Assembly: GCA_030747075.1 (NCBI GenBank)
Contig: JASLLL010000004.1
Span: forward strand, 79,486 to 143,485
Source of the DNA: Gemmatimonadota bacterium
GTDB lineage: Bacteria > ARS69
Length of the DNA stretch: 64,000 nucleotides
Direction: 5' to 3'
Part shown: positions 27,152 to 58,907 of the stretch, one piece after another
How the letters are laid out: each line of letters begins with the position of its first letter
How positions within the stretch are numbered: the first letter of the stretch is position 1
Notes under the pieces: model-generated
What the model saw: only the letters and a program-made list of their open reading frames with translations
The model's database searches: none
Told to the model about the DNA's origin: nothing
Program-made: the position numbers and the translations under genes

Positions 27152-27177
27152 TAGCCTCGCCGCACCGGGAGGTGAGG

Positions 27178-32091: not shown

Positions 32092-32225
32092 GGCCGCTCC
32101 CGTCAACGGACTCGTCGACGCGCTCTCGGTGGGCGGCGAGTTCCGGGTGCGGAGCCCTTCTGGTGGGAGAAGACGGGGGAAGCGATGGGCAAACGCTCTC
32201 GCTCCCCCCGCGGTAGTGATGATCC

Positions 32226-34757: not shown

Positions 34758-34768
34758 CGCCCTGTTCG

Positions 34769-41401: not shown

Positions 41402-42082
41402 TCACGCGGTTCGTTCCTCGCGCACGGCGGCGATGGTCTCACGAAGATAGCGGAACCAGTCCTCCATCCCCTCGCCCGTGCGTGCGCTCGTCTTGAGAAC
41501 CGGGGCATCCGGGTTGACTTCGCGAATGTGCCCGAGGAGTTGGTCCATTTCGAAGTCGAGATGCGGAATGAGATCCGTCTTCGTAATGACGATGGCGTCC
41601 GCGTTTCGGAAGATGAGCGGGTACTTGACGGGCTTGTCCTCTCCTTCGGTCACCGAAACGAAGGTCACCTTGCGGTCCTCGCCCAGACGGAAACTGGCGG
41701 TGCAGATCAGGTTGCCGACATTTTCGATGAAGAGGAGGTCCAGTCCGTCGAGGTTCAGCGCAGCCAGACCTTCGCGGACCATTCCCGCATCCAGATGGCA
41801 ACTGCCTCCCGCCGGGCCGCCGGTGTTCACCTGGACGACCGGCGCGCCGTGGGCTGCAATCCTCTCCGCGTCGTGACTGGTGTTGACATCGCCCTCGACC
41901 ACGCCGATCGGGGTCTCGTCACGCAGCGCATCGAGCGTGGCCTCCAGGAGTCGTGTCTTTCCCGCGCCGGGCGAGGAGACGAGATTCAGAGTCACGATGC
42001 CGCGGCGGGCGAGTTCGCCGTGATTGCTCGCGGCAACGCTGTCGTTGAGCTTCATGATGTCCCGCACGACCTTGACTTCCAT
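41402..42082 (-). CDS. hypB: Hydrogenase nickel incorporation GTPase HypB
   Basis: 226 residues from ATG 42082, eight bases after GAGGAG; the GTG at 42088 overlaps the hypA stop but is too close to the site. P-loop SSPGAGKT (36-43), EGDVNTSHDAERI, and the G-domain metal site GGSCHLDAG (C95, H96). G4 is TKTDL. There is no N-terminal polyhistidine stretch. HypB with HypA delivers nickel to the [NiFe] hydrogenase large subunit using GTP hydrolysis. It is the last gene of the hypD-hypE-hypA-hypB transcript, followed by a terminator. Confidence 0.93.
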   Translation of the reverse strand: MEVKVVRDIMKLNDSVAASNHGELARRGIVTLNLVSSPGAGKTRLLEATLDALRDETPIGVVEGDVNTSHDAERIAAHGAPVVQVNTGGPAGGSCHLDAGMVREGLAALNLDGLDLLFIENVGNLICTASFRLGEDRKVTFVSVTEGEDKPVKYPLIFRNADAIVITKTDLIPHLDFEMDQLLGHIREVNPDAPVLKTSARTGEGMEDWFRYLRETIAAVREERTA

Positions 42083-42084
42083 CG

Positions 42085-42444
42085 TCACCGCTCCTCTTCG
42101 TCGGCGAAGAGGATGCTCTCGACGAGCATCTCCTTCCCGCCGGTGATTTCAACCGCGAAAGAACCGCACTTCGTGCAGACGAAGCACGCGGACTCGCCGA
42201 TCCAGTCGTGGCCGCAGTCCTTGCAGTGCAGCGTCAGGGGCACTTCCTCCACCACGAGCCGACTCCCGGCCAGGGGGCCTTCACTCGTGAGGAGGTCATA
42301 GTAGAACTCCACCGGGCCGCGGACCGCGCCGGAGAAGAGCCCCAGCGAGAGTCGCACTTCCCGGACGGGGGCGGGGACGGCAAGAGCGCGCACTTCCTCT
42401 TCCACGGCATGAACAAGCGCTTCGGTGATGGAGTACTCGTGCAT
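42085..42444 (-). CDS. hypA: Hydrogenase nickel metallochaperone HypA
   Basis: 119 residues. It begins MHEYSITEAL, with H2 as nickel ligand. The zinc domain has C74, C77 (CKDC), C87/C90 (CFVC) and C93, a slight variation of the usual CxxC pair. The stop overlaps the start region of hypB, and it starts eight bases after hypE ends, so the genes are coupled. HypA passes nickel to the hydrogenase precursor together with HypB and SlyD. Confidence 0.93.
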   Translation of the reverse strand: MHEYSITEALVHAVEEEVRALAVPAPVREVRLSLGLFSGAVRGPVEFYYDLLTSEGPLAGSRLVVEEVPLTLHCKDCGHDWIGESACFVCTKCGSFAVEITGGKEMLVESILFADEEER

Positions 42445-42451
42445 GAGGCGC

Positions 42452-43474
42452 CTAGCAGATTCTGGGGAGCATCTCCCCGGTGAGCATATCCACGATTCTC
42501 TCCCCGCCGATGGAGGTGCGCAGCGTGACCCGTCCGGGCGGACCCTCGCGCACTTCTCCGATGCGACACGCGTCCGCGCCCGCCGCGTGTGTGCGGAGGA
42601 TGCGCAGAGCACGGTCGGCATCCGCTTCAGGGACCACCGCGATCATGCGTCCCTCGGACGCAAGATAGAGCGGATCGAATCCCATGATCTCGCACGCTCC
42701 GCGAACTCCCGGGCGCAGCGGGATGCGCTCCTCGTCGAGGCGGATGGCGACGCCGCTGGCGGATGCGATCTCCCCCAGGACCGTGGCCACTCCCCCCCGC
42801 GTGGGGTCGCGCAGTGCGTGCAGCGGGATGGCGTCGTCCGCGAGTGCGCGCACCAACCCGTTCACGGGCGCGACATCGCTCTTCACTTCCCCGTCGAGCG
42901 AGAGCCCGGCGCGGAGCGTCATGAGGCAGATCTCGTGATCGCCAAGTGTTCCGCTGGCGAGAATGGCGTCGCCCGGGCGGGCGCCGGTTCCCGTGGGGGT
43001 GATCCCGTCGGGAAGGATGCCGAAGCCCGCGGTGGTGATGAAGATCCGGTCGGCGTGCCCGCGCGGCACCACCTTTGTGTCTCCCGCGACCACGGTCACT
43101 CCCGCCTCCTTCGCGGCGGCGGCCATGGAGTCCGCGATTCGCACCAGGTCGGCGACGGGAAGGCCTTCCTCCAGGATGAAGCCCGCCGTCAGCCAGCGCG
43201 GCTGTGCGCCGGTCATGGCCACATCGTTGACGGTTCCGCAGATGGCGAGGCGTCCGATGTCGCCGCCCGGGAAGAAGACGGGGTCCACGACGAAGCAGTC
43301 CGTGCTGACGGCGAGTCGCCCGGCGGGGATGTCGCCGACGAGCGCGCCGTCGTCCAGGACATCCAGCGCGGCGTTGGAGAAGCGCGGGAGGAAGACAGCC
43401 TCCACGAGATCGTGCGCGAGCTTCCCGCCGGAGCCGTGGGACAGGAGAATGTGTTCGTCAGTGAGAGTCGGCAT
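42452..43474 (-). CDS. hypE: Hydrogenase maturation protein HypE
   Basis: 340 residues, ATG five bases after GGAGG. The PurM-like ATP-binding fold has LLSHGSGGKLAHDLV near the start, DDGALV, STDCFVVDP and GDTKVVP motifs. The C-terminus is LPRIC, whose terminal cysteine is carbamoylated by HypF and dehydrated to thiocyanate, the source of the cyanide ligands of [NiFe] hydrogenase. It overlaps the hypD fragment by 17 bp. HypF and HypC are not in the window. Confidence 0.95.
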   Translation of the reverse strand: MPTLTDEHILLSHGSGGKLAHDLVEAVFLPRFSNAALDVLDDGALVGDIPAGRLAVSTDCFVVDPVFFPGGDIGRLAICGTVNDVAMTGAQPRWLTAGFILEEGLPVADLVRIADSMAAAAKEAGVTVVAGDTKVVPRGHADRIFITTAGFGILPDGITPTGTGARPGDAILASGTLGDHEICLMTLRAGLSLDGEVKSDVAPVNGLVRALADDAIPLHALRDPTRGGVATVLGEIASASGVAIRLDEERIPLRPGVRGACEIMGFDPLYLASEGRMIAVVPEADADRALRILRTHAAGADACRIGEVREGPPGRVTLRTSIGGERIVDMLTGEMLPRIC

Positions 43475-44120
43475 GGTGGCCTCCGTCCGGGCCGTACTTG
43501 AAGTGTGCGGCGCAGGTTCCCTCGCTGGAGACCATGCACGCTCCCACGGGGTTTTCCGGCGTGCAGGCGGTTCCGAAAAGCGGGCACTCCTCCGGCGCGG
43601 CCAGTCCCTGCAGAATCTGTCCGCAGATGCAGCCCTTGTGCTCGCGAGTGGGCTCCACCTCTACGGGGATCCGGCGGTCGGCGTCGAAATCCGCGAACTC
43701 CTCCCGGATGGCAAGTCCACTTCCCGCGATGACGCCGATGCCCCGCCACCATGCGTCGGCCGGTTCGAAGACGCGGTGCAGGATTTCCAGTGCACGCGGA
43801 TTTCCTTCTTCGCGGGCAATCCGTGCGTACTGGATCTCGACCCTTGCATGGCCGCGAACGGTCTGCGTGCAGAGCATGTCGATTGCGTGGAGAACATCCA
43901 GCGGTTCAAAGCCCGCGATGACGACACCGAGCCCGTGCTGCCCGGCAAGGAAGCGGTACGGACGCGCGCCGATGATCGTGGAGACATGGGCCGGGCCGAG
44001 GAAGCCGTCGAGCTTCAGTTCTCCCGTGGCGATGGCGGCCAGCGCTTCCGGAACCGTCTTGTTGGCACCGCTCACGAAGTAGTTGGTTGGTCGTCCGGCT
44101 CTTTCAGGGGTCGATCGCAA
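43458..44120 (-). CDS. hypD: HypD, C-terminal fragment (5' truncated)
   Basis: 220 residues at most. From NYFVSGANKTVPEAL onward it aligns with the C-terminal ~200 residues of the ~370-residue HypD: GFLGPAHVSTIIG, VVIAGFEPLDVLHAI, and the Fe-S cysteines in GCICGQILQG, ECPLFGTACTPENPVGACMVSSEGTCAA. The first ~160 residues, including the CGGHTH and GPGCPVC motifs that hold the Fe(CN)2CO group, are absent; upstream in frame the sequence is non-homologous and stops at 44151-44153. The only start is a TTG without Shine-Dalgarno. The gene is therefore broken near 44,085 by a rearrangement or assembly join, and the maturation pathway from this copy should not work. Confidence 0.8.
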   Translation of the reverse strand: MRSTPERAGRPTNYFVSGANKTVPEALAAIATGELKLDGFLGPAHVSTIIGARPYRFLAGQHGLGVVIAGFEPLDVLHAIDMLCTQTVRGHARVEIQYARIAREEGNPRALEILHRVFEPADAWWRGIGVIAGSGLAIREEFADFDADRRIPVEVEPTREHKGCICGQILQGLAAPEECPLFGTACTPENPVGACMVSSEGTCAAHFKYGPDGGHHADSH

Positions 44121-44445: not shown

Positions 44446-45117
44446 TTATTCCTCCACGGGAGTAGGTGGCACGGACCCCTGAACGTACCGGAAGACCCAT
44501 GTTGCCGCCGCGGCTCCGGCAATGGGTGCTGCGATGTACAGCCACAGCGCGTCCCACTGGCCGGAGACGATTGCCGGGCCGAGTGAACGCGCCGGGTTCA
44601 TGGACGCACCGGTCAGCGGCCCGCCGAGAAGCGCTTCCCAGGTGACCGTTCCGCCGATGGCGACTCCGGCCATGATCCCCTTTTCCATGTGCCCGGTGGA
44701 CACATTGAGGATGACGAAGACCAGGAAGAAGGAGAGAGCCGTCTCCACCACCAGAGCCTGGGGTACCGTCACCGACGGCAGTGTCGCGCCCAGCGTCTCA
44801 TGCTCGGGAAACAGCACGCGCAAGAGAAGGGCGGCCGCGATCGCTCCTGCCAGCTGGCTTCCGATGTACGGGAGAACCGCCTTCCCTTCCAGGCGTCGGG
44901 CGAACAGGAAGCCGAGCGTGACCGCCGGGTTGATGTGCGCTCCGGAGATGTTGCCGATTGAGTAGATCATGGCCATGACGACCAATCCGAACACCACGCA
45001 TACGCCCAGGTGCCCCAGCGTTCCCGGGAACAAGTCGTTGACGATGGCGGCTCCGCAACCCGCAAACACCAGCGCGAATGTGCCGACGCCCTCCGCGATG
45101 AACCGGTTTCCGTTCAT
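44446..45117 (-). CDS. Aquaporin / MIP-family channel
   Basis: 223 residues, six transmembrane helices and two half-helices. Both NPA boxes are intact: GAHINPAVT (N63) and GASMNPARSLGPA (N174, with the Arg of the selectivity filter). The loop sequence and Arg/His pattern are closer to water-selective aquaporins (AqpZ-like) than to glycerol facilitators, which have NPARD. The ATG overlaps the stop of the upstream unknown gene, so they form one transcript. Confidence 0.92.
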   Translation of the reverse strand: MNGNRFIAEGVGTFALVFAGCGAAIVNDLFPGTLGHLGVCVVFGLVVMAMIYSIGNISGAHINPAVTLGFLFARRLEGKAVLPYIGSQLAGAIAAALLLRVLFPEHETLGATLPSVTVPQALVVETALSFFLVFVILNVSTGHMEKGIMAGVAIGGTVTWEALLGGPLTGASMNPARSLGPAIVSGQWDALWLYIAAPIAGAAAATWVFRYVQGSVPPTPVEE

Positions 45118-45494
45118 GAGTCTCCTCGCGCCCGGTGAGAGGGCGATCCGGCGGCTTCCGTAGTCTTCGCGGCCTGCTGAAACGAGCGCGCTCCTGCGGT
45201 CGCGTCCAGCCCGTACTTCTCCCATGCGGCAATCAGCGACGGGCCGCCCCCTTCCGCCCATGCGGAGTCGTAGACGCGGAGCCCTTCGGTGAGCCACGCC
45301 TCGTCGCACTCTTCCCACCGGTTCAGCAACGCGGGGATGTTGTGGACGGCCTCCATGAGGTCCGCCAACCGCGCGCTCTCCCCTGCGGACAGGCCCTTCT
45401 CCTGCCCACGGTGTGCGGTCGCGCGGGCTTCGAGGATGGCGCGGGACAGAACTTCGAGACAGGCGGAGCGTTGAGGCTCCGGTGCGACAGACAT
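45114..45494 (-). CDS. Conserved hypothetical protein upstream of aquaporin
   Basis: 126 residues from ATG 45494 (AAGGGGA upstream). Soluble and helical: QRSACLEVLSRAILEARATAH, SARLADLMEAVHNIPALLNRWEECDE, LTEGLRVYDSAW. No motif with a known function. Its stop overlaps the aquaporin start, so it is coupled to it; it is divergent from the selenium-dependent-type xanthine dehydrogenase with about 190 bp between. Confidence 0.6.
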   Translation of the reverse strand: MSVAPEPQRSACLEVLSRAILEARATAHRGQEKGLSAGESARLADLMEAVHNIPALLNRWEECDEAWLTEGLRVYDSAWAEGGGPSLIAAWEKYGLDATAGARSFQQAAKTTEAAGSPSHRARGDS

Positions 45495-45686: not shown

Positions 45687-48401
45687 ATGAACTCAACCCC
45701 GCTCTCTTTCGTGCTGGATGGTGTGGATCGCGACGTGGCGGTCGAATCCGGCGAGTCGCTTCTCGAGGTCCTTCGCGAACGCTGCGGCGTCCGTTCCGTG
45801 AAGGATGGATGCAGCCCGCAGGGTCAGTGCGGGTGTTGCCTCGTGCTGGTGGACGGTTCGCCAAAGCCCGCCTGCGCCGTCCCCGCCGCGAAAGTGGAGG
45901 GAAGGACCGTCACGACACTCGCCGGTGTGCCGCAGGCGGATCGGGATCTTCTGGCGCTTTCCTTTGCCGCCGCGTCGGGAGTCCAGTGCGGGTTCTGCAC
46001 GCCGGGGATTGCCCTTCGGGCGTACGCACTGGTGGCGCAAGACCCGGCGCCCGCCCGATCGACCATCGCGAAGGCGCTGCACGGTCACCTCTGTCGCTGC
46101 ACGGGCTACACGAAAATCCTCGACGCGATCGAGCTCTTTGCGGCCGTTCGACGCGGCGACGCATCGCCCCCGGAACCGGCGCGTTCCGGTGGCGCGGGCG
46201 AAGGCGTGGGCGTGCGGCTGCGGAAGTACTCGGCCGCCGAACTCACTCTCGGGGAGCGTCCGTTTGTCGACGATCTTTCACCGCCCGGCGTGCTTCACGG
46301 GGCTGTGGCGCTGTCCGCGCATGTCCGTGCGCGCGTTCTCTCCATCGACACCACGGAAGCGCGTGCGCTGCCGGGGGTGCACGCCGTGGCGACCGCTGGC
46401 GATGTCCCCGGAGAGCGTTTCTACGGGCTCATCGAGCGCGACTGGCCGGGGCTGGTCGCGCCGGGAGAGGAAGTGCGCTGTACAGGCGACATTCTCGCCG
46501 CCGTCGCGGCCGACAGTCGGCGGATCGCCCGGGAGGCCGCCGCGCTCGTGCGCGTGGAGTACGAACCGCTTCCGCCGGTGCTGGACACGAAGGCGGCCCT
46601 CGCCGAATCCGCCCCGCGTGTCAATCCGGCCAACCCGAATCTTCTTTCGCGTACGGTGGTCCGCCGGGGTGACGCCGCGGCGGCGATGGCGGGTAGTGCG
46701 CACACGGTGGCCGGGGTCTGGCGCACGCAGCGGATCGAGCACCTCTTCCTGGAACCGGAGAGTTGCGTGGCGGTTCCCGCTTCGGCGAATCGCGCTCGTC
46801 GCGCATCCAACCCAACCTCCACGCCGCGTCTTCACCTCTACACCCAGGGGCAGGGCGTCTTCGACGACCGAAGACAGGTCGCGGCCTTCCTCGCGATGGA
46901 TGAAGACGACATCTTCGTCGAGCTTGTCCCGAACGGCGGCGCGTTCGGCGGCAAGGAGGACATGTCGATTCAAGCGCACGCGGCGCTGCTGGCGATGATG
47001 ACGGATCGGCCGGTCAAGCTCACGCTGTCGCGCGGCGAGTCGGTTCGCGTGCACCCGAAGCGGCATCCCATCGAACTGCGCTACGAGGCAGGGTGTGACG
47101 AGGAGGGTCGCCTCACGGTCGTGCGGGCGCGCATGGTCGGGGACACCGGCGCGTATGCGTCGGTGGGTGCGAAGGTGCTGGAGCGCTGCGCGGGGCATGC
47201 GTGCGGTCCGTACAAGGTTCCGTGCGTGGATGTGGAGGCGGTGGCCGTCCACACGAACAACCCGCCCGCGGGTGCCATGCGCGGATTCGGCGCGAACCAG
47301 GCTTCGTTCGCGATGGAAGGCGTGATGGATCTGCTTGCCGAGAGGGCGGGGCTGGATGGCTGGGAGATGCGTCGCCTGAACGCGGTGGAAGTCGGCGATG
47401 CCGTGACTACCGGACAGGTGCTCCACAAGTCGGTCGGGATGGTGAAAACGCTCGACGCCATCAAGCCGCACTGGGACGCCGCTCGCGCTGCCGGATTGTC
47501 TGCGGGCATCGCGTGCGGCATCAAGAACTCCGGCATCGGCAACGGCGCCGTGGAGTGGGGCAAGGCGCGACTGGTCGTGGAAGATGACGGTACCGTTTCC
47601 ATACTGAACGGATTCACGGAGATGGGGCAGGGCTTGCTCACGGTGCTCGTCCAGATTGCGGTGGAGGCCACCGGGCTTCCGGCGTCCGTCTTCCATCCCC
47701 GCGTGGATTCCACCTTTGCGCTCGACTGCGGGCAGACCACCGGGTCCCGCGCGACGCTTCTCGGTGGCCGGGCGGTGAAGCGTGCCGCGGAGAAACTCGC
47801 GGGAGCACTGGTTGAAGGGCACAGCCTGCGTGACATGGCCGGGCGTGTGTTCGCGTCCGACATTGTGGTGGACGACACGGTCGCGCCCGACCCGTCCGGG
47901 ATGGCGACGGATATCAAGACGCACACTTCCTACGGCTTCGCCACGCAACTGTGCATTCTGGATGAGAATGGACGCGTGGAGCGCTTTGTTGCCGCGCATG
48001 ATGTCGGGCGGGCGGTCAATCCCGCACTCTGCGAAGGGCAGATTGAGGGCGCGGTTCACATGGGCCTGGGGTATGCGCTCACCGAAGAACTGCCGTGCCC
48101 CGAAGGCCGGCCGGTGACAGAGAAGCTTCGGGAAATCGGGGTCCTGCGCGCGGCGGATATGCCGGTGGTGGAGGTGATTCTCGTGGAGGATCCGGAACCG
48201 GAGGGTCCGTACGGCGCCAAGGGAGTGGGCGAGATCGGTCTTGTGCCGACGGCGGGTGCGGTGGCCGGTGCTCTTCACGCCCACGACGGCATTCGCAGGA
48301 CGGATCTGCCCATGCGCGACTCTCCCGCCGCGCTGGCCATGAGCGTGCCGAGGCCGCGTCGTCGTGTGCGTACCGGGGACGATGCGGGGGGGACGCCGTG
48401 A
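45687..48401 (+). CDS. Selenium-dependent-type xanthine dehydrogenase (fused Fe-S and Mo domains)
   Basis: 904 residues. Residues 1-155 bind two [2Fe-2S] clusters: GCSPQGQCGCC (C42, C48, C51) with C63, then QCGFCTPG (C101, C104) and HLCRCTGY (C136, C138). The rest is the molybdenum domain: GGAFGGKEDMSIQAHAALLA, PAGAMRGFGANQ, GFTEMGQG and the catalytic Glu in YGAKGVGEIG. The fused Fe-S/Mo layout without FAD, and GQCGCC in the first cluster loop, are those of the selenium-dependent xanthine dehydrogenase family (TIGR03311), whose Mo carries a labile selenium. Its neighbours (SsnA, YgeW, YgeY, YgfK) are the standard partners. It should oxidise purines such as xanthine or hypoxanthine. Head of a four-gene operon. 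Confidence 0.88.
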   Translation: MNSTPLSFVLDGVDRDVAVESGESLLEVLRERCGVRSVKDGCSPQGQCGCCLVLVDGSPKPACAVPAAKVEGRTVTTLAGVPQADRDLLALSFAAASGVQCGFCTPGIALRAYALVAQDPAPARSTIAKALHGHLCRCTGYTKILDAIELFAAVRRGDASPPEPARSGGAGEGVGVRLRKYSAAELTLGERPFVDDLSPPGVLHGAVALSAHVRARVLSIDTTEARALPGVHAVATAGDVPGERFYGLIERDWPGLVAPGEEVRCTGDILAAVAADSRRIAREAAALVRVEYEPLPPVLDTKAALAESAPRVNPANPNLLSRTVVRRGDAAAAMAGSAHTVAGVWRTQRIEHLFLEPESCVAVPASANRARRASNPTSTPRLHLYTQGQGVFDDRRQVAAFLAMDEDDIFVELVPNGGAFGGKEDMSIQAHAALLAMMTDRPVKLTLSRGESVRVHPKRHPIELRYEAGCDEEGRLTVVRARMVGDTGAYASVGAKVLERCAGHACGPYKVPCVDVEAVAVHTNNPPAGAMRGFGANQASFAMEGVMDLLAERAGLDGWEMRRLNAVEVGDAVTTGQVLHKSVGMVKTLDAIKPHWDAARAAGLSAGIACGIKNSGIGNGAVEWGKARLVVEDDGTVSILNGFTEMGQGLLTVLVQIAVEATGLPASVFHPRVDSTFALDCGQTTGSRATLLGGRAVKRAAEKLAGALVEGHSLRDMAGRVFASDIVVDDTVAPDPSGMATDIKTHTSYGFATQLCILDENGRVERFVAAHDVGRAVNPALCEGQIEGAVHMGLGYALTEELPCPEGRPVTEKLREIGVLRAADMPVVEVILVEDPEPEGPYGAKGVGEIGLVPTAGAVAGALHAHDGIRRTDLPMRDSPAALAMSVPRPRRRVRTGDDAGGTP

Positions 48402-49558
48402 CTCCGCTCGCTCGACTGCACGCGGCAGGGCTGGACGCTACCGACTGCCAGGTCCACGGCGGTTTCGTCAACGCCCACACGCACATTTACTCCGCGCTCG
48501 CACCGATGGGGATGCCCGCGCCGGAACCGCCGCCCTCGGACTTTCTGGAGATTCTCCAGCGCGTGTGGTGGCGGCTCGACCGGGCACTCGATGCGCAGAG
48601 CCTTCGCGCTTCGGCAAGACTCTACGCGGCGGAATCACTCCTTTTCGGCACGACCACGCTCATTGACCATCACGAATCGCCCGGCATGATCGACGGTTCG
48701 CTCGACATCCTCGCGGACGCCTGCGAGGAAATGGGCATTCGCGCCGCCCTCGGGTACGGCGCCACAGAGCGCAATCGGGGACGCATCGAAGCGCGGGAGG
48801 GACTGGAGGAATGTCGTCGCTTCCTCACCTGGAGGGGCGCGCCGCAGCGGGAGTCCGACGCGTCGCTGGAATCCCCGCCGCTTCTTCGCGGATTGGTTGC
48901 GCTCCATGCCTCATTTACCGTCTCCGATGACTCGCTGGTCGAAGCGGCCGCGCTCTGTCGCGAACTGGGTGCGCCGATGCACATCCATCTGGCGGAAGAT
49001 GCCGCCGATGTCGCGGATGCCCGCAAGCGCGGTCACGCGGGACCGCTGGAGCGACTCCTTGCGCACGACGCGCTTCCCGCGGGATCCATCCTTGCGCACG
49101 GCGTGCACCTGGATGCGGATCAGGTGAGAATGGCACGCGACAACGGGCTGTGGATCGTCCAGAATCCGCGCTCGAACCGGGGGAATCGCGTCGGGTATCC
49201 CGGGGCTCTGGCCGCCGCCGACCGCGTGGCGCTCGGAACGGACGGGTACCCTTCGGACTCCGCCGCGGAGATTGCGGCGCTTCTCGAAGAGGCTGCCCTG
49301 CACGGCGATGACATGGCCTCCGCCCGGCGCCGTCCGGATGCGGGGCGGGATCTGGCCGGTGCCCTTTTCGGCGAACTGCGTGACGCGTGCGCGGTGGAAA
49401 AGACAGGAGTGGTCCGCCAGTTGATTGTGAATGACCGCGTGGTCGTTCGGGATGGTCGGCTGGTGGCGGAAGACATCGAGGCTCTTCGGGCGGAGGCGGC
49501 AGCGGAAGCACCCACGCTCTGGGAGCGCATGGCCGTTCAGGACGAGCGGTTTTCCTGA
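48398..49558 (+). CDS. ssnA: SsnA-like amidohydrolase
   Basis: 386 residues from GTG 48398 overlapping the previous stop (GTGA). The amidohydrolase metal site begins NAHTH (H27, H29); then LIDHHESP, LHASFT, MHIHLAED, ILAHGVHLD, NPRSNRGN and LGTDGYPSD follow in order. GGFVNAHTHIYSALAPMGMP and FLEILQRVWWRLDRAL are close to SsnA, the selenium-linked aminohydrolase of purine clusters, where it is thought to deaminate a purine or ring-opened intermediate. Compared with SsnA (~440 residues) the N-terminal strand domain of ~50 residues is missing, which leaves only 26 residues before the HxH. It is still likely functional, because all metal motifs are intact. Confidence 0.82.
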   Translation: MTPLARLHAAGLDATDCQVHGGFVNAHTHIYSALAPMGMPAPEPPPSDFLEILQRVWWRLDRALDAQSLRASARLYAAESLLFGTTTLIDHHESPGMIDGSLDILADACEEMGIRAALGYGATERNRGRIEAREGLEECRRFLTWRGAPQRESDASLESPPLLRGLVALHASFTVSDDSLVEAAALCRELGAPMHIHLAEDAADVADARKRGHAGPLERLLAHDALPAGSILAHGVHLDADQVRMARDNGLWIVQNPRSNRGNRVGYPGALAAADRVALGTDGYPSDSAAEIAALLEEAALHGDDMASARRRPDAGRDLAGALFGELRDACAVEKTGVVRQLIVNDRVVVRDGRLVAEDIEALRAEAAAEAPTLWERMAVQDERFS

Positions 49559-49576
49559 AGAGGGAGGCGAATCAGA

Positions 49577-51070
49577 ATGGCCAAGCTGGGACTCGAGCGG
49601 GAGATCGTGGACCGCAATGTCTATGATCGAACCGTGGATCGATTTGCGGAAGCGTCGATCGTGCTGCCTCGATTTTCCGAACTGGCGGACCCCTCGACGA
49701 TTCCCGTGTCCGTGGTCGAGGCTCTTGCGGAAGTGGACCCCGACGCCCCTCATCCGCTCAACCTCTTCCGCGTTCACTGGCATAACTCCTCGGACCGCCG
49801 CGGGTTCACGGAGATTCCGGACCATCTCGTGCTGCCCACTGAACTGACGGGTGTCGCCGCTCCGATTGTCGTCGCGCTCGGAAACCGATTCCCGATGATC
49901 CGTGCGCACAAGGTGCTGGCCGCGTACGCCTGCCTGGTGCCGCGCCTGATTACCGGGCAGTTCGACCCTACCCGGCATCGCGCGGTCTGGCCGTCCACTG
50001 GCAACTATTGTCGCGGTGGCATCGCCATCTCCCGCATTCTGGATTGCCATGGCGTGGCGGTCCTTCCGGAGGGGATGAGCCGGGAGCGCTTCGAGTGGCT
50101 GGAGAAGTGGGCGACGGACCCGGCGGACATCGTGCGCACGCCCGGGAGCGAAAGCAATGTGAAGGAGATCTACGACGAGTGCGCTCGTCTGGATGAAGAC
50201 CCGGACACGATCATCTTCAACCAGTTCAGCGAGTTCGGAAACCACCTGGCGCACTTTCTGTGTACGGGTCGTGCGCTGGAGACCATCCATCGCTCGCTCG
50301 TGGAGAAGACGCCGGGGTGGACAGCCGCGGCGTTCGTGTCGGCGACCGGGTCCGCCGGGACCATTGCGGCCGGGGACTATCTGAAGGAGCGGTTCGGGTC
50401 GAAGACCGTGGCGGTCGAAGCACTGGAGTGCCCGACGCTTCTCTCGAATGGTTTTGGCGAACACAACATTCAGGGTATCGGCGACAAACACATTCCGCTC
50501 ATCCACCATGTGATGAATACGGATTTCGTGGTCGCCGTCTCCGACCGCGCGACCGACTCGCTGAACCATCTCTTCTCGTCGACCGCCGGGCGGGACTACC
50601 TGCTGGCGCGACGCGGACTCTCCCCCGAGATGGCGGGGATGCTCCCGAACCTCGGGATTTCCGGGATCTGCAATGTTCTGGCAGCCATCAAGACGGCGAA
50701 GTACCTCCGTCTCGGTGCGACCGACGCCATCTACACCGTGGCGACCGACGGCGCGGAAATGTATGCGACGGAGCGTACGCGCACCGCCGAGCGGGACTTC
50801 CCGGGCGGGATCGACTCCGTTTCGGCGGCGGAAGCGTTCGGTCGGTATGCGCTGGGCGCGGGCGTGGACCATCTCCGGGAACTCACGCGTCCGGAACGGG
50901 ACCGCGTGTTCAATCTGGGGTACTTCACCTGGGTCGAGCAGCAGGGTGTATCCCTTCACGACTTTGAACGCCGACGCACGCCGGAGTTCTGGCTGGGTCT
51001 GCGAGAGTGGATCCCCGCGTGGGACGACATGATCGACGCGTTCAACGCACGCGCACGCGGGAAGCCGTGA
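49577..51070 (+). CDS. PLP-dependent enzyme, cysteine-synthase-like fold (first of pair)
   Basis: 497 residues, ATG after AGGGAGGCG. Fold-type II PLP enzyme: the Schiff-base lysine is probably K112 in [14 protein letters not shown], the Ser/Thr-Gly-Asn substrate loop is [11 protein letters not shown] (139-149), and [19 protein letters not shown] is the phosphate-binding glycine loop. It is longer than cysteine synthase (~310) owing to extra N- and C-terminal regions. Exact reaction unknown; beta-replacement or beta-elimination on a serine-, cysteine- or diaminopropionate-like substrate is expected. In the well-known purine clusters the position is taken by YgeX (diaminopropionate ammonia-lyase); this protein plus the next may fill that role. 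Overlaps the next gene by four bases. Confidence 0.75.
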
Positions 51071-52488
51071 CCAGCGGTCCGTTCCGGATGGTGTGCGCCG
51101 GGTGCGGTGCGGGGGTCCCGCCGGACGCTCCGCATCCGTTCCGCTGTCCCGAAGGACCGGCCGAAGCGGGAGATGTCGACCATGTCCTGGTGAGACTCCT
51201 GGACCCGGAACGCGTGGCCCCGCCTGACGAAGACCCCCAACCCTTCGTTCGCTATCGCACGCGCTTGAGGTCGTACCATCTGGCGCTCGCGCACGGGATG
51301 GACGATGCCGCGTTTGTGTCTCTCGTTCGCGAACTGGATGATGCCGTCGGGGCCGTCTGCGGAACCGGGTTCTTCGTGACGCCGTTCGCGCTCTCCCGGC
51401 AGGGTGCGGAGGCCGTCGGACTTTCGTCCGGAACGCTGCGCATCAAGGACGAAACGGGTCATGTGGGCGGGTCGCACAAGGCGCGCCATCTCTTCGGGAT
51501 TCTGCTGCAGTTGGAGGTCGCCCGCCGCACGGGCCTGTTCTCCACGAAGGAGAAGGCGCCGCTCGCGATCGCCAGTTGCGGGAATGCGGCGCTGGCTGCC
51601 GCGATCGTCGCGAAGGCGGGGGGGCGAGCGCTCACGGTCTTCATCCCGACGGATGCGGATCCCGCAGTGGTGTCGGCGCTTCGCGAGCACGATGCGTCGC
51701 TCACGACCTGCGCACGAGAAGAAGGGGTGCCGGGGGATCCGTGCGTGACGCGGTTCCGGCAGGCGGTGGAGGGCGGCGCGCTTCCATTCACCTGCCAGGG
51801 ACCGGAGAATGGACTTGCGATTGAGGGCGGACACACACTGGGTTGGGAGATGGCCGAAGTGCTCGCGGCCGAGGAGGGCCGTCTGGGTCATGTGCTGGTG
51901 CAGACAGGCGGCGGCGCACTCGCCAGCGGAGTCGCGGCGGGACTGGCGGAAGCGGCGGCGCTCGGTGTGCTGCCCCGCCTCCCGCGTGTTCACACGGTGC
52001 AGACGCGTGGCGCGTTTCCGCTGGAGCGGGCGTGGGACCGCGTGGCGTCGCGTGCGCTGGAAGCACTGCACGCGGAGGGTGCGTTGCCGCACGCGATCCC
52101 GGAGGGCGCCGCCGCGCGCGCGGATCTCCTGCGAACACACGCGGACTGGGCCGCCGTCGCTACGGAACTTGCGCACGCGGTCACGCACCGGGCGGAATAC
52201 ATGTGGCCGTGGGAGGGAACTCCCCGCAGCATCGCGACCGGGATTCTCGACGACGAGACCTACGACTGGTTCGCCGTCGTGTGCGGAATGATCCGAACGG
52301 GCGGTATCCCGGTGATCGTGAGCGAGGAGACGCTGGCGGATGCAAATGCCATTGCCCGGGAAGCGGTTGGAATCCGCGCGGACGCGACCGGTTCCGCGGG
52401 TCTTGCCGGGCTGATGCGGCTTGTTCGCGCGGGGGAGATCGGGGCCGAAGCCGATGTGGCGGTCCTCTTCACGGGAACGCTGCGCTGA
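51067..52488 (+). CDS. PLP-dependent lyase, threonine-synthase-like (second of pair)
   Basis: 473 residues from GTG 51067 overlapping the stop of the first PLP gene. The N-terminus has a zinc-ribbon-like CAGC (C10, C13) with C27, as in threonine synthases. PLP lysine K138 is in [24 protein letters not shown] (169-177) is the substrate loop and [12 protein letters not shown] the phosphate loop. It differs from YgeX and from the preceding PLP protein. The close coupling suggests that the two form a complex or catalyse successive steps, for example release of ammonia and pyruvate from a purine-derived amino acid; this is inference. Confidence 0.75.
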
Positions 52489-52506
52489 TCCCGGGCCGAG
52501 GTCCTG

Positions 52507-53697
52507 CTAGCGGCGGACGATTCCCCGATCCAGACAGCGGCCCAGAGCGGCGGCGGGATCCGCGAAACGCGTGTGCAGGATCATCGACGCGATCACGAAC
52601 GGCTTGTGCGCCGCCTCCTGATAGGTGCCGAGCCGGGCTTTCTCGAACACCGACTCCGACACTTCTCCCGACTCGCAACTCACGCCCGTGATGTCCGCGG
52701 GCAGACAGTGCATGTAGGAGGCCTGACCGTTCTTCGTGCGTGCCATCTTCTCTTCGGTGCACTCCCAGTCCTGGAAACGCGCATTCTCGGCAAGGCACTC
52801 CCGTTCGAGTTCCTTCAGCGCGTTCGTTTCCCCGGCGCGGAGGAGTCGGGTCCTTTCGTGCATGACGCGAACCGGCGCCCAGCTCTTGGGGTAGACGATG
52901 TCCGCACCTTCAAACGCTTCGTCCATGGAGTGGACCACCGAGAAGGCGCCCCCGTTTGCCGCGGCGCCCCGGCGCGCGGCGTCCAGCGGTTCCTCTACGA
53001 GGCCGTATCCTTCCGGGTGCGCCAGGACGACATCCATTCCGAAGCGCGTCATGAGAGACACGACACCTTGCGGGACCGACAGCGGCTTTCCGTAACTGGG
53101 CGAGTAGGCCCAGGTCATGGCGATTCGCTTCCCGCGCAGTTCGTCCAATCCGCCGAAGGTCTCCATGAGGTGCCGAAGGTCGGACAGGCTCTGCGTCGGG
53201 TGGTCCAGATCGCACTGGAGGTTGATCACCGAAGGCCGCTGTGCCAGCACGCCCTCGCGCCGACTCTCTTCCACGGCTTCCGCGACTTCCTTCATGTAGG
53301 CGTGTCCCTCGCCCAGGAACATGTCGTCGCGGATGCCGATGGTCTCTGTGAGAAACGATATCATCGTTGCCGTCTCACGCACGGTCTCCCCGTGCGCAAT
53401 CTGCGAAGTTCCCTCGTCGAGTTCTTCCGTCATGAGCCCGAGAAGATTCGCGCCGGACCGGAAGGAATAGCGCGTGCGTGTGGACTTGTCCCGGAAGATG
53501 GAGAGGGCGAGGCCGGTGTCAAAGAACCGCGCCGAGATGTTCGCCCGGTGGAGATCGCGCAGGATTTCCGCGCCGAGCAGGACGCTCCCCAGTGAGTCGT
53601 CGTCCACATCCCAGGTTCGCAGGAAGTCCCCGTCGTGGAGGCGGTTCTCCAGCGTCTCCATGGATCCGATGAGCGGGCGGATGTCGTTGTGGGTCAC
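52507..53697 (-). CDS. ygeW: Knotted carbamoyltransferase YgeW
   Basis: 396 residues from GTG 53697, which follows AGGAGGA. The carbamoyl-phosphate loop FRDKSTRTRYSFRSG has STRTR at 72-76, HPTQSLSD is the second motif and MHCLPADI the third. The segment TWAYSPSYGKPLSVPQG is specific to the knotted YgeW/AOTCase group. In purine-degrading bacteria YgeW is thought to phosphorolyse a carbamoylated intermediate, giving carbamoyl phosphate for ATP synthesis by carbamate kinase. It converges on the second PLP gene with 18 bp between stops and is the last gene of the leftward operon. Confidence 0.92.
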   Translation of the reverse strand: MTHNDIRPLIGSMETLENRLHDGDFLRTWDVDDDSLGSVLLGAEILRDLHRANISARFFDTGLALSIFRDKSTRTRYSFRSGANLLGLMTEELDEGTSQIAHGETVRETATMISFLTETIGIRDDMFLGEGHAYMKEVAEAVEESRREGVLAQRPSVINLQCDLDHPTQSLSDLRHLMETFGGLDELRGKRIAMTWAYSPSYGKPLSVPQGVVSLMTRFGMDVVLAHPEGYGLVEEPLDAARRGAAANGGAFSVVHSMDEAFEGADIVYPKSWAPVRVMHERTRLLRAGETNALKELERECLAENARFQDWECTEEKMARTKNGQASYMHCLPADITGVSCESGEVSESVFEKARLGTYQEAAHKPFVIASMILHTRFADPAAALGRCLDRGIVRR

Positions 53698-53711
53698 GGG
53701 GTCCTCCTGCG

Positions 53712-54932
53712 TTATGCGGGTACGGTGTCGAGATACACGAGCGGGAAGGTTGCGTAGAATGCGGCCGCTTTCGTGAGGTGTTCCACCGGGCACTGATCTT
53801 CGGGGCTGTGTGCGTGCGCCTCGTCGCCGGGGCCGAATCCGAATGTCGGGACGCCGAAAAGACCGCGCGTGGCGATCCCGTTGGTCGAAAAACCCCACTT
53901 GTCGATGACAGGTTCTGCGCCGAGGACGGACCTTGCCGCCTGTGCGGCCGCGACGATGACCGGGTCATCCTCCTCCAGCACCCAGGTGGGATAGTACTTC
54001 TTCGTGGGATAGGTGAGGCCGGTGTAGGCCTCCCGCGCATACTCCAGCACGGTGACGACCGCCCCTGATGCCGCGACCCCGGGGAGGCTCTCGATCTCGG
54101 CGACCGCGCTCTCCAGTGTCTCACCGCGCGTAAGGCGACGGTCGAGATGGATGGTGCAACTGTCGGCCACGGCGCACAGCGAAGGCGAAGTGGAACGGAT
54201 GTCGGAAATGGTCACGGTGCCTTTGCCGAGAAAGGGGTCCGCGGTCGCGGCAAGATCCTCGTTCAGCTTCTCGATGTCCGCGATGATCGGCGCCATGTGG
54301 TACACCGCGTTCACCCCGCGTTCCGGCGCGGACCCGTGGCAGGAAAGGCCCTGAGTGCGAACTTCCATCTCCATTCTGCCCCGATGCCCGCGGTACACAC
54401 CCAGCAGCGTGGGTTCCGTGATCACCACGACCTCCGGCTCCAGCACTTTCTCGCGGAGAATGTACTGCCAGCAGAGTCCGTCGCAGTCCTCTTCCAGCAC
54501 CGTGCCGGTAATCCACAACTGGTAGTCGCCGTCCAGACCGAGTTCGCGGATGATCCGCGCCCCGTGGACCATGGAGGCCATTCCGCCTTCCTGATCTCCC
54601 GCCCCGCGTCCATAGACCGTGCCATCGCGAAGCTCCCCCCGGTAGGGATCGCGCGTCCATGTGGAGGGATCTCCCACGCCGACCGTGTCCAGGTGCGCAT
54701 CCATTGCCAGAACGCGCTTTCCGGAGCCGATCCGGCCGAGGATGTTGCCCATTCCGTCGATACGGATCTCATCGAACCCGACGCTCTCCATTTCCTGCCG
54801 CACGCGCTCCACCACCGCGCGCTCATCCGCGCTCTCGGACGGAATGGCGATCATGTCGCGCAGAAACCGGACCATGTCAGGGGTGTACTCTTCGGCAAGC
54901 CTTGCGATGGCAGCGGCGTCAGGGAGCGTCAT
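53712..54932 (-). CDS. ygeY: YgeY family M20 hydrolase
   Basis: 406 residues from ATG 54932 (GGAG eight bases upstream). M20 metallopeptidase-type zinc ligands: MDAHLDTVG (H80, D82), GRGAGDQEGG (D113), LEEDCDG (E147 general base, E148 ligand), EPT (E173) and a C-terminal His in EAHAHSPED. The family is the selenium-metabolism-linked deacylase/hydrolase YgeY, which acts next to YgeW in purine clusters. The substrate is unproven; an N-carbamoyl or N-acyl diamino acid is likely. 14 bp from ygeW, same transcript. Confidence 0.92.
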   Translation of the reverse strand: MTLPDAAAIARLAEEYTPDMVRFLRDMIAIPSESADERAVVERVRQEMESVGFDEIRIDGMGNILGRIGSGKRVLAMDAHLDTVGVGDPSTWTRDPYRGELRDGTVYGRGAGDQEGGMASMVHGARIIRELGLDGDYQLWITGTVLEEDCDGLCWQYILREKVLEPEVVVITEPTLLGVYRGHRGRMEMEVRTQGLSCHGSAPERGVNAVYHMAPIIADIEKLNEDLAATADPFLGKGTVTISDIRSTSPSLCAVADSCTIHLDRRLTRGETLESAVAEIESLPGVAASGAVVTVLEYAREAYTGLTYPTKKYYPTWVLEEDDPVIVAAAQAARSVLGAEPVIDKWGFSTNGIATRGLFGVPTFGFGPGDEAHAHSPEDQCPVEHLTKAAAFYATFPLVYLDTVPA

Positions 54933-55008
54933 GGCAGTCTCCGATTGCGTGGATACCCCGCGCTCATCGCGGGGGAACCCGTGAATACACATCCGACCCG
55001 GCGGGTTG

Positions 55009-56958
55009 TCAAGCCGTCCCGGTCGCGATCCAGTTCGAAGCCCCGCCGCGGAGGACCGCTTCGGAGATTCTCACCACCAGATGGAATGGCCGAAGGTCCA
55101 CTTCGCCCGCCGCATGACCGGAGACCGTCCCCGCGATATCACGCGGGTCAAATCGCAGCGCGAACCCCGTTCCCTCGTAGAGCGCGCCTTCGGGGTTCAC
55201 CTCCACGAGGACTTCCTGCCCGGCGATACGAGCTCGCACGCGGATCCCGCCACCCCCCGGGTCTCCCGAAACCCCCACTGCGTGAAACCCGTCGGCGGGG
55301 GCCGCTTCCGCGAACGCCTCCGCGCTTCCGAAGAACCGGGGCTTTGCCAGATACGGCCCGCCATCCTCGGGACAGAACACATCGCAGTTTCCGCAGTCGT
55401 TGCAGAGATCCGCGAAGTTCCCGATCTGATTGGCCTTCTCCACCGGGAGAGGTTCGCCCGGGATGAGTTCCCATCCGGTGCTTGTCGCTCGAAGCACTCC
55501 GGTCGGGACCGGTTCGGCAGGCAACTCAAAGACGAAGTTGGCGGCGTTCGGGCAAGCGGGCAGGCACTTGTCGCAGTTGATGCAGTCGAAGAGGTGCAGC
55601 ACGCTTCCGATCTTTCGTGGCGGCTTCGCGTTTTGTTCCTTTCGGTAGCGCGGATCCGCCGCCGCCCTCTTCGTGTACTCCCGCGTGTTCCGAAGTACGG
55701 CCTCGTCGCGCGGGCAATCTCCGGCCTCGCCGCGGACAAACTCGTCGATGGACCGGGCGCCAGCAGCCTCCATGCGCGTCTCCAGTTCGCGCAGGTACCC
55801 GGAGGCGCGAGCGTATCCTCCCGGTCGAAGGAGGTCGGTGCAGACCGTGACCGGCACCAGACCCAGCGATACCGCATCCGCGAAGTTCGCGCGGTCAATC
55901 CCGCCCGAAAAGGACACCGGAATGCCGGGCCCGAAGTGGTCGCGGAATCGACGCACAATCTCCATGGCGAGAACATGCAGCGGCGCACCGGAGAGATAAG
56001 CCTCGGGAGTCTCCGCAGGGAGAAACCCCGCGGAGTTCTCGACAAGGAGTGTGTTCGTGAACTTGACCCCGAAGCCCAACTCAAGGGATGAAGCCGTGGC
56101 GGACAGACGCTCCACCATCTGCGTCATGTCGTTCCAGGTCGTGTCCTTGCTAAAGGCACCCGGCGGTACTCGGATGTCCCGGTAGCCCATCACATCGTGA
56201 AGGAGGCGGTTCGTCTCATCCCGGCCGAGGAGCGTGGGGTTGAACTTCACCACGCAGTGCAGTTCGTGTTCGCGCAGCAGAAAGTCGACAATGCTCTCGA
56301 TCTCATCCGGGGGGCACCCGTGGAATGTGCTCAGCGTCAGCGTGTCCGAGATGCATGTGGGGAGAGGGTCCGGAAGAAAGCGGTGAAAGGCGCGCGGTGT
56401 CTCCTTCACAAGACGAGCGACGACGGCCGATGCGTCTTTCATCCCGTCAAGGAAGCGACGCACGGGGGCGGAGCGGATGCCCGCGAGATCGTACCCCACG
56501 CTCATGTCGTACACCGTGTCGCCCTGTCCGGCCGGGAGCGAGAGCGCGCCGCTTTCGGAGAGCATCTGAATGAGGAGCGCGCCTTTGACATACTCCTCGA
56601 GAGATTCCGACAGGCGGAGCTCCTGCGACCACTCGATGTTGTATCCCACGGTCCGCATGTCGATGCACGGGCGCGGGATGGTGAGGCGATCGTTGATCTG
56701 AACGGTTTTCAACTCCAGGATGCGGCATCCGCCTGCCCACGCCAACACCATGTTCTGCGCCATCTGGGTGTGCGGGCCGGCCGCGGGTCCCAGCGGAGTC
56801 GATGCACGGTGTCCGTGGAAGTGGACGGATAGATCCAGCCCGGCTGTCCCCCGGTGGAACTTCTCCGCCGGGAGATCGAAGAGAGAGCCGCGCTCCGCCG
56901 GTTCCTGAAAAGCGCGTGTTACGAGTGCCTCGAAGGGGCGGGGGCGAAGTTCCGGCAT
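55009..56958 (-). CDS. ygfK: YgfK-like putative selenate reductase subunit, short form
   Basis: 649 residues; ATG overlaps the acs stop (ATGA). The N-terminal ~430 residues form a dihydroorotate-dehydrogenase/glutamate-synthase-like FMN barrel (LGPAAGPHTQMAQNMVLAW, STFHGCPPDEIESIV, VKFNPTLLG, VSFSGGIDRANF). Two [4Fe-4S] clusters follow: C459-x2-C462-x2-C465-x3-C469 and C519-x2-C522-x2-C525-x3-C529, then PEDGGPYLAKPRFF. E. coli YgfK is ~1030 residues because it also has a GltD-like FAD/NAD domain between the FMN and Fe-S parts; that domain is missing here. The protein may need a separate NAD(P)H partner or take electrons directly from ferredoxin. Part of the acs-ygfK-ygeY-ygeW operon. Confidence 0.82.
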   Translation of the reverse strand: MPELRPRPFEALVTRAFQEPAERGSLFDLPAEKFHRGTAGLDLSVHFHGHRASTPLGPAAGPHTQMAQNMVLAWAGGCRILELKTVQINDRLTIPRPCIDMRTVGYNIEWSQELRLSESLEEYVKGALLIQMLSESGALSLPAGQGDTVYDMSVGYDLAGIRSAPVRRFLDGMKDASAVVARLVKETPRAFHRFLPDPLPTCISDTLTLSTFHGCPPDEIESIVDFLLREHELHCVVKFNPTLLGRDETNRLLHDVMGYRDIRVPPGAFSKDTTWNDMTQMVERLSATASSLELGFGVKFTNTLLVENSAGFLPAETPEAYLSGAPLHVLAMEIVRRFRDHFGPGIPVSFSGGIDRANFADAVSLGLVPVTVCTDLLRPGGYARASGYLRELETRMEAAGARSIDEFVRGEAGDCPRDEAVLRNTREYTKRAAADPRYRKEQNAKPPRKIGSVLHLFDCINCDKCLPACPNAANFVFELPAEPVPTGVLRATSTGWELIPGEPLPVEKANQIGNFADLCNDCGNCDVFCPEDGGPYLAKPRFFGSAEAFAEAAPADGFHAVGVSGDPGGGGIRVRARIAGQEVLVEVNPEGALYEGTGFALRFDPRDIAGTVSGHAAGEVDLRPFHLVVRISEAVLRGGASNWIATGTA

Positions 56959-58907
56959 CAGCCCTCGTCCGTCTCGTACTGATCGCGGAGTTTTCGCACG
57001 ACGGCCGGATCCGCAAGCGTCGTGGTGTCTCCCAGCGTGCGCCCTTCGGCGATGTCACGAAGGAGCCGCCGCATGATCTTCCCGCTTCGTGTCTTCGGGA
57101 GTTCCGCCGTTGCGTAGATCTCATCCGGCCGGGCGAGCGCGCCGATCTTCTCCGCGACATGCCCCCGGATCTCGTCCATCTCCTCCTTCGATGTCTCCAC
57201 CTTGCCACGCAAAGTGACGAACGCGGCGATCGCCTGTCCCTTGACGGGGTGCGTTCGACCCACCACTGCCGCTTCCGCCACATCCGCATGGTCTACGAGC
57301 GCGGACTCCACTTCCGTGGTGCTGATATTGTGTCCCGACACGAGCATGATGTCGTCCACGCGTCCCATCAGCCAGTAATAGCCGTCGCGATCGCGCTTGC
57401 AGCCGTCACCGGTGAAGTACATCCCCGGGAAGCGCGACCAGTAGACTTCCCGGTAACGGTCCGGGTCGCCATGGATGGTGCGGAGCATGGCAGGCCACGG
57501 CTTTCGCAGCACGAGATACCCGGCGTCTCCCAGCGGAACGCTCTTTCCGTTCTCATCCACGACATCCGGCTCGATTCCGGGGAAGGGGAATGTGGCGGAC
57601 CCCGGGCGCGTGGTGGTGATTCCGGGGAGCGGGGTGATCATGATCATGCCGGTCTCCGTCTGCCACCAGGTGTCCACGATGGCGCACTTCTCGCGACCGA
57701 TCGTGCGGTGGTACCACATCCAGGCTTCCGGATTGATCGGCTCACCGACCGACCCCAGAAGCCGTAGCGAGGAGAGGTCGTGTCGCTTCGGGTGCTCGTC
57801 TCCCCAGCGCATGAATGTGCGAATGGCGGTCGGAGCGGTGTAGAAGATGGAGACTCCGTACTTTTCGACGATCTCCCAGAAGCGATCCTTGCGAGGCCAG
57901 TCCGGTGAACCTTCGTACATGACCCCGGTCGCGCCGTTGGCAAGCGGTCCGTACACAATGTAGCTGTGGCCGGTCACCCATCCGATGTCCGCCGTGCACC
58001 AGTACACATCTTCTTCGCGGAGATCGAAGACCCAGCGGTGTGTGACGGCGGTCCCCACCATGTACCCGCCGGTCGTGTGTGCGATCCCCTTCGGTTTGCC
58101 GGTCGTGCCGGATGTGTAGAGGATGTAGAGCAAGTCCTCCGCGTCCATGACCTCGGGAGCGCACTTTGATCCGGCGGCGGCCATGAGGTCGTGCCACCAG
58201 TGATCGCGTCCTTCGTGCATGGGGGCGTTCGCGGCGTCTCCGATTCGGCGCACCACGACGACATGCTCTACTCCGGGGCATTGTTCCAGCGCTTCATCCG
58301 TGTTGCGTTTGAGCGGAACGATGTTCCCGCGGCGCCATCCACCGTCCGCCGTCACGACGACCTTTGAATCGGAATCGATCACGCGCTCGCGAATCGACTC
58401 AGGGCTGAAGCCGCCGAAGATCACCGAATGGGCGGCCCCGATGCGTGCGCACGCGAGCATCGCAATGGGAAGCTCCGGGACCATGCCGAGATAGATGGTG
58501 ACTCGATCACCCTTGCCGACGCCCAGTGACTTCAGGACATTTGCGAAGCGCGACACTTCGCGAAGCAGATCGGCGTAGGTGAGAACCCGCTGATCGCCCG
58601 GTTCGCCCTCCCAGATGAATGCGGCTTTGTTGCGCCGCCAGGTTCGGACATGGCGATCCAGACAGTTCACCGTGATGTTGAGCTTCCCGCCAACGAACCA
58701 CTTCGCCCAGGGGCAGTCCCAGTCCAGCACCTTCTCCCACGGCGAGGACCACTCGAATGAGGCGGCCTGTTCCGCCCAGAACGCCTCGGAGTCCCGGGCG
58801 GTTTCGTAGACCGCCGGGTCGGAGACGACGGCATTCTCCGCAAGCTCGGGAGGCGGGAGGAAGGTCCGGTTCTCGTGGAGGAGCGCGTCGATCGTCTTCT
58901 TCGCCAT
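56958..58907 (-). CDS. acs: Acetyl-CoA synthetase (AMP-forming)
   Basis: 649 residues, full length for Acs. Motifs: [12 protein letters not shown] (phosphate loop), TWWQTETG (acetate pocket), [20 protein letters not shown] and the C-terminal [16 protein letters not shown] with the lysine that is acetylated by Pat-type enzymes. ATG follows GGGAG. It converts acetate, ATP and CoA to acetyl-CoA. It is first in the leftward operon and overlaps ygfK, which suggests that acetate made or used in purine breakdown is handled here; in most described purine clusters acs is not included. Confidence 0.95.

Follow-up and report, generated by a model that had tools for sequence, protein, structure and literature searches.

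Eight adjacent genes occupy positions 45687–58907 of a 64,000-nucleotide stretch of Gemmatimonadota DNA (the window; positions 79486–143485 of contig C4 in a 2.67-Mb assembly of 61 contigs that is rated 100% complete). All eight open reading frames (ORFs) are present and intact, and they are arranged in two operons that meet tail to tail: a rightward one consisting of xdh, ssnA and two genes for pyridoxal phosphate (PLP) enzymes, here called PLP1 and PLP2, and a leftward one consisting of acs, ygfK, ygeY and ygeW (Table 1). The xdh/ssnA and PLP1/PLP2 junctions are GTGA overlaps, acs and ygfK overlap by one base in a TGATG junction, and ssnA/PLP1 and ygeY/ygeW are closely spaced, as expected for co-transcription within each operon. 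The convergent layout recurs in a second Gemmatimonadota locus (L099), in two loci from Acidobacteriota (L061 and L076), and in a family relative (L028), and is hence not a product of chance. An earlier reading of these genes, made from the sequence alone (the sequence-only reading), had described two convergent operons forming a variant of the anaerobic purine/urate degradation cluster. The ORFs, family profile searches, and junctions bear out the layout, and the family calls, the comparison with Escherichia coli, and a hydantoinase and a carbamate kinase elsewhere in the genome support the identity. We consider it probable that the locus encodes most of an oxygen-independent, reductive route of urate/purine degradation, probably linked to ferredoxin, in which the last step has been substituted.

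Table 1. Genes of the two convergent operons, with window coordinates and the evidence for each assignment
Feature	Position	Strand	Evidence
xdh	45687..48401	+	TIGR03311, 883.5 bits (cut-off 830); Pfam Fer2, Fer2_2, Ald_Xan_dh_C, MoCoBD_1, MoCoBD_2
ssnA, amidohydrolase	48398..49558	+	PRK07203/TIGR03314, 268/245 bits, under cut-off; 37% identical to E. coli SsnA 43–322
PLP1, fold-type-II PLP enzyme with cysteine-synthase-like core	49577..51070	+	PF00291; alignment, model
PLP2, fold-type-II PLP enzyme with CxxC N-terminus, threonine-synthase/serine-dehydratase-like	51067..52488	+	PF00291; model
Inter-operon gap, 18 bp between both stop codons	52489..52506		
ygeW, knotted carbamoyltransferase (ureido-group phosphorolysis)	52507..53697	-	605.9 bits (cut-off 453); 60% identical to E. 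coli YgeW
ygeY, M20 hydrolase for second ureido group	53712..54992	-	558.4 bits (cut-off 321.5); 55% identical to E. coli YgeY
Short ygfK, DHODH/PreA-like flavin domain and 4Fe-4S domain	55009..56958	-	Alignment to E. coli YgfK
acs, AMP-forming acetate-CoA ligase	56958..58907	-	TIGR02188, 984.1 bits (cut-off 725)

One distinctive feature of the locus is the pair of PLP enzymes. YgeX, the 2,3-diaminopropionate ammonia-lyase (TIGR03528) that ends the E. coli pathway, is absent from both the window and the genome, in which the best match scores 19.7 bits against a cut-off of 532. Neither PLP1 nor PLP2 matches this profile at E ≤ 0.001, and PLP2 resembles PRK08206 only weakly (19.1 bits against 276, over 45 residues). 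The sequence-only reading had already listed YgeX as missing; this holds genome-wide, but rather than a plain gap we find two PLP genes in what appears to be a widely conserved substitution. In an alignment of 43 PLP1 rows with 69% mean column identity, Lys112 is invariant and is the probable Schiff-base lysine. The predicted structure of PLP1 (mean predicted local distance difference test score, pLDDT, 92.2) has a cysteine-synthase-like core with N- and C-terminal extensions, and superposes on cyanoalanine synthase and CysK with a Z-score of about 35 (root mean square deviation, rmsd, 2.2; 306 residues aligned). In PLP2, K132 of the aligned protein is invariant in 39 rows, and the model (pLDDT 93.7) matches threonine synthase (Z 37.5, rmsd 2.2, 318 aligned) as well as the 2,3-diaminopropionate ammonia-lyase 5ygr (Z 28.9, rmsd 3.0, 314 aligned). 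The invariant lysines of both proteins lie at the expected cofactor position. Beta-elimination is common chemistry in PLP fold type II, the fold type to which YgeX also belongs, and PLP1-PLP2 is, judging from sequence and neighborhood, a probable non-orthologous replacement for YgeX. That two proteins stand in for one could possibly reflect opposite stereoisomers of the substrate or a mixed complex.

The pair is widespread. A scan of 84,980 species genomes yielded at least 526 relatives of PLP1, and 80 loci were kept for comparison. Neighborhoods were counted by tblastn over 82 loci, two of which are the same contigs as two others: PLP2 was detected in 69, ssnA in 44, xdh in 42, ygfK in 17, ygeW in 16, and ygeY in 12, all of which are lower bounds because of contig ends. 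Among the loci from other genomes, 12 also contain carbamate kinase and 14 hydantoinase, and nucleoside ABC importers, UacY-like deacylases, and carbamoylases recur nearby. According to record titles and tree annotation, the relatives belong to Pseudomonadota, Acidobacteriota, Actinomycetota, Planctomycetota, Gemmatimonadota, Myxococcota, Chloroflexi, and Eisenbacteria. Of 40 PLP1 genomes, 36 are without a YgeX relative of near full profile length, and the other 4 have one that stays below the cut-off. Among the loci themselves, YgeX occurs in one, from Thermoanaerobaculia (L049): this relative, 46% identical to E. coli YgeX, sits alongside PLP1-PLP2, xdh, and carbamate kinase. PLP1-PLP2 is retained either with YgeW and YgeY-like proteins or with a UacY-like deacylase or M20 carbamoylase, which points to a step downstream of ureido cleavage. 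In the literature searched (open-licence papers), we found no description of PLP1-PLP2 in the reductive urate pathway.

A second feature of the locus concerns its redox enzymes. From its Pfam domains, Xdh is a single chain combining 2[2Fe-2S] clusters with a molybdenum-cofactor hydroxylase/dehydroxylase; the chain is devoid of a flavin adenine dinucleotide (FAD) domain, and an FAD subunit is absent among the neighboring genes. We take it to be a probable urate reductase/xanthine dehydrogenase. YgfK is likewise reduced, which the sequence-only reading had not noted: residues 5–406 and 905–1002 of E. coli YgfK align to residues 4–393 and 462–593 of the window protein, whereas the internal FAD/NAD(P)H domain (E. 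coli residues 455–849) has no counterpart in it. YgfK is short in all but two of the related loci, so this is not an assembly fault. SsnA, whose best family is SsnA itself, begins after the first ~45 residues of the profile, a shortening shared by L028, L099, L107, L109, L116, and others; its His and Asp metal ligands can be recognized by eye, and ssnA adjoins xdh in many loci. Because each is without a part, SsnA (268.4 bits against 444) and YgfK (398.8 bits against 835) fall below their family cut-offs, while Xdh, YgeW, YgeY, and Acs exceed theirs. As neither Xdh nor YgfK has an FAD/NAD(P)H module of its own, the likely electron donor is reduced ferredoxin, formed for instance by a pyruvate:ferredoxin oxidoreductase (PFOR) on contig C5, or else a separate PreT-like flavoprotein. 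Ferredoxin has also been proposed as the donor for Clostridioides difficile enzymes that likewise lack FAD/NAD(P)H modules (PMC12507026). The genes for PFOR and for a LarA-like protein, both recognized by eye, flank the XdhC gene on C5 (L135, 12701–16789 and 5216–6661).

Steps not encoded in the locus could be supplied by genes on other contigs. A HyuA-type hydantoinase lies on C9 (618 bits; cut-off 393), outside the cluster and beside a PreT-like flavoprotein. Carbamate kinase, for which the sequence-only reading had suggested a genome search, is indeed present on C43 (377 bits; cut-off 358). The same contig carries two aminotransferases, an ABC importer of the BMP type that is similar to nucleoside importers, and an amidohydrolase that narrowly passes the 5'-deoxyadenosine deaminase cut-off; C43 3841–14918 (L009), with its ABC genes, deaminase, carbamate kinase, YqeC, and aminotransferases, is probably a second purine locus of this genome. 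We also considered the C9 PreT-HyuA pair as the lost half of YgfK, an idea weakened by the presence of a true PreA on C9, found also in relatives lacking PLP1.

By analogy with the E. coli and clostridial enzymes, whose biochemistry provides the reference pathway (PMC12507026, PMC12990295), we infer the following order of steps. Xdh would remove one oxygen from urate to give yanthine, the short YgfK would reduce the ring, and SsnA would open the reduced purine ring. The hydantoinase from C9 would then yield 2,3-diureidopropionate, from which YgeW together with the C43 carbamate kinase, and YgeY, would take off the two ureido groups, the first with recovery of ATP. Finally, PLP1 and PLP2 would take over the role of YgeX and split 2,3-diaminopropionate into pyruvate and ammonia, and the pyruvate could feed the C5 PFOR and thereby reduce ferredoxin.

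The sequence-only reading had further linked the locus to selenium and pointed out that selD, yqeB/yqeC, and xdhC lie outside the window. This is correct, and the genome search that it suggested for selD and yqeB recovered the first and not the second. selD is located at C4:62873–63799, 16 kb left of the window (363.9 bits), and encodes a SelD that is itself of the selenocysteine type, with an in-frame TGA read in the motif CAGUASK; yqeC is at C43:11539–12237 (TIGR03172, 132–135 bits; cut-off 73), and XdhC at C5:79432–79866. YqeB (TIGR03309) has no match at E ≤ 0.001 in this genome, and for that reason we do not file the locus under the selenium-dependent molybdenum hydroxylase system. Xdh itself falls in the NCBI "selenium-dependent" family TIGR03311, over its cut-off, and not among ordinary aldehyde oxidases, a placement that, like the presence of selD and yqeC, is in keeping with the proposed link without establishing it. 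The column of XdhD Glu606 is variable, in an alignment with XdhD too distant to be informative.

Comparison across genomes bears on both possible natures of the enzyme. All 28 genomes whose locus Xdh is at least 57% identical to the present one have selD, as do 32 of the 42 PLP1 genomes in which the fetched DNA contains no Xdh of that kind (Fisher p 0.0045); the 57% line was set after the data were seen, and the statistic is confounded by phylogeny and cut contigs. selD alone was rejected as proof of selenium use, since it is also frequent among PLP1 genomes lacking a nearby Xdh and is found in relatives without PLP1. YqeB, which C. difficile requires in order to use purines by the selenium-dependent route (PMC11448449), occurs in 5 of 40 PLP1-bearing genomes (4 over the cut-off) and in only 3 of 27 tested genomes with an Xdh at least 57% identical (one below the cut-off). 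Its carriers are scattered across the Xdh tree, and its presence differs even between two sister species, Rhodoplanes tepidamans and R. serenus. We give about an even chance to Xdh being an ordinary molybdenum/sulfur hydroxylase, "selenium-dependent" by family membership only, with selD serving selenocysteine alone. The lack of YqeB here and in most carriers fits this explanation, as does an XdhC-type maturation protein on C5, while the TIGR03311 score, the presence of selD in all 28 genomes with a close Xdh, and a yqeC over its cut-off speak against it. Those same three observations, and the contrast in these genomes between selD, always present, and YqeB, rarely found, argue for a true selenium-dependent hydroxylase that SelD would supply through a YqeB-independent route, perhaps with YqeC and the XdhC protein. 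We regard this as a serious possibility with a chance a little short of even, given that selD is also required for selenocysteine (SelD here being a selenocysteine protein), that both family relatives lacking PLP1 carry selD, that the selD comparison is confounded, and that YqeB is required in C. difficile and patchily distributed over the Xdh tree. Xdh may plausibly depend on selenium.

Several points weigh against our reading of the locus as a urate pathway with a substituted last step. acs, which the sequence-only reading counted as an extra member, is present in the locus, but its membership is not conserved: other loci show only 24–28% matches. We therefore reject it as a pathway component and regard it as a local addition, and it has no clear role in the locus. 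In view of the true PreA on C9 and in PLP1-less relatives, the C9 hydantoinase and PreT may serve pyrimidine degradation. Many PLP1 loci have no other pathway gene in the DNA fetched, and PLP1 also occurs without detectable PLP2, in several loci together with a CoA-transferase and a luciferase-family protein, so that its chemistry may be broader. The substrate proposed for PLP1 and PLP2 is putative, and since a single YgeX suffices in E. coli, the pair needs explaining. PLP1 relatives without detectable PLP2 that precede CoA-transferase-like genes and a luciferase-family protein were observed in L103 (9923–14264), L104, L117, and L118.

PLP1-PLP2 might instead act one step before or beside diaminopropionate, for example by beta-elimination of urea from 3-ureidoalanine (albizziin), or by a beta-replacement in which the three-carbon unit would stay an amino acid. 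PLP1 is cysteine-synthase-like, with O-ureido-L-serine synthase (Z 33, 3x44/3x43) and SbnA (Z 31.6) among its structural neighbors, there are two enzymes and not one, and ureido-cleaving genes are not seen in some loci. However, structural resemblance between members of PLP fold type II says little about substrate, and YgeY is present and scores over its cut-off, so the ureido group should be gone before the PLP step; we consider this alternative unlikely. The dispersal of the hydantoinase, carbamate kinase, and selenium genes over other contigs and the shortness of SsnA and YgfK might suggest that these genes are a remnant, or serve purine salvage, and make up no working degradation pathway. 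This is very improbable given that all frames are open, the junctions are tight, and the shortened SsnA and YgfK recur in other phyla.

Around the locus, the strand opposite to xdh carries a nearby gene for an aquaporin-type MIP channel (window 44446–45318, minus strand), with glycerol kinase and peroxiredoxin genes farther to its left. A hypD fragment (window 43458–44120, minus strand) covers only profile positions 166–367 of 372 and stands upstream of intact-looking hypE and hypB and a probable hypA (region 41402–43474); no N-terminal part of HypD was found in any frame upstream of the fragment. Between 25367 and 35126 on the minus strand, long ORFs (31192–32625, 28350–30560, 27115–28815, 25370–27115, and 33462–35126) have no Pfam match at 1e-5, and some may be false ORFs of GC-rich sequence. 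Within the locus, ygeY may alternatively start at the ATG at 54932.

The reductive urate pathway was elucidated in E. coli and clostridia (PMC12507026), as recently as 2025, and has been described mainly in gut bacteria. In the published survey of its distribution, SsnA served as the marker and YgeX was scored through PF00291, a broad Pfam family (PMC12507026). PLP1 and PLP2 match that family too, so they could have been counted as YgeX. With PLP1-PLP2 as a marker, the pathway reaches into lineages of soil, groundwater, and sediment (Acidobacteriota, Gemmatimonadota, Planctomycetota, Myxococcota, and Eisenbacteria). The last step is open to testing, since there are cultured carriers (Propionivibrio dicarboxylicus, Rhodoplanes, Roseiarcus, and Pleomorphomonas), and the question of labile-selenium insertion becomes testable as well in carriers that have selD and a close Xdh yet lack YqeB. 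A broader proposition has two parts: urate breakdown driven by ferredoxin would be completed, in about eight phyla beyond the known gut clusters, by a pair of PLP enzymes with no subfamily-level relationship to YgeX, and Xdh would obtain its selenium without YqeB. We regard it, taken as a whole, as rather doubtful.

Compared with known systems, the locus is a variant of a known pathway, distinguished by a domain-deleted reductase and by a conserved and probable last-step substitution undescribed in the literature searched. The E. coli cluster runs ygeW-ygeX-ygeY-hyuA-yqeA ... ygfK-ssnA-ygfM-xdhD. The locus shares with it YgeW (60% identical), YgeY (55%), the flavin domain of YgfK (41%), and SsnA (37%), and the genome elsewhere shares carbamate kinase (48%), hydantoinase (42%), and YqeC (28%). 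Unlike in E. coli, YgeX, YqeB, YgfM, and the NAD(P)H domain of YgfK are missing, PLP1-PLP2 is present, Xdh is just 27–29% identical to XdhD/XdhA, and the genes form two convergent operons with acs. An XDH-family molybdenum hydroxylase, a short YgfK, HyuA, and the YgeW/carbamate kinase/YgeY set of the E. coli type are all found; the lack of YgeX is the reason for filing the locus as a variant and not under that type. Like YgeX, the PLP pair is of fold type II and is proposed to act last in the pathway, but PLP1 lies outside the YgeX families and PLP2 resembles 5ygr at the fold level only. Unlike the selenium-dependent molybdenum hydroxylase system (TIGR03311, YqeB, YqeC, SelD; PMC2276186), the genome is without YqeB, although it has the TIGR03311 Xdh, SelD, and YqeC. 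The clostridial variant of C. difficile consists of XdhD without an FAD subunit, UacX without an FAD domain, and UacY (PMC12507026); the present locus has YgfK and YgeW in place of UacX and UacY and is missing the YgeX that C. difficile retains. It nevertheless resembles that variant in that its redox enzymes are without NAD(P)H modules of their own, which suggests ferredoxin.

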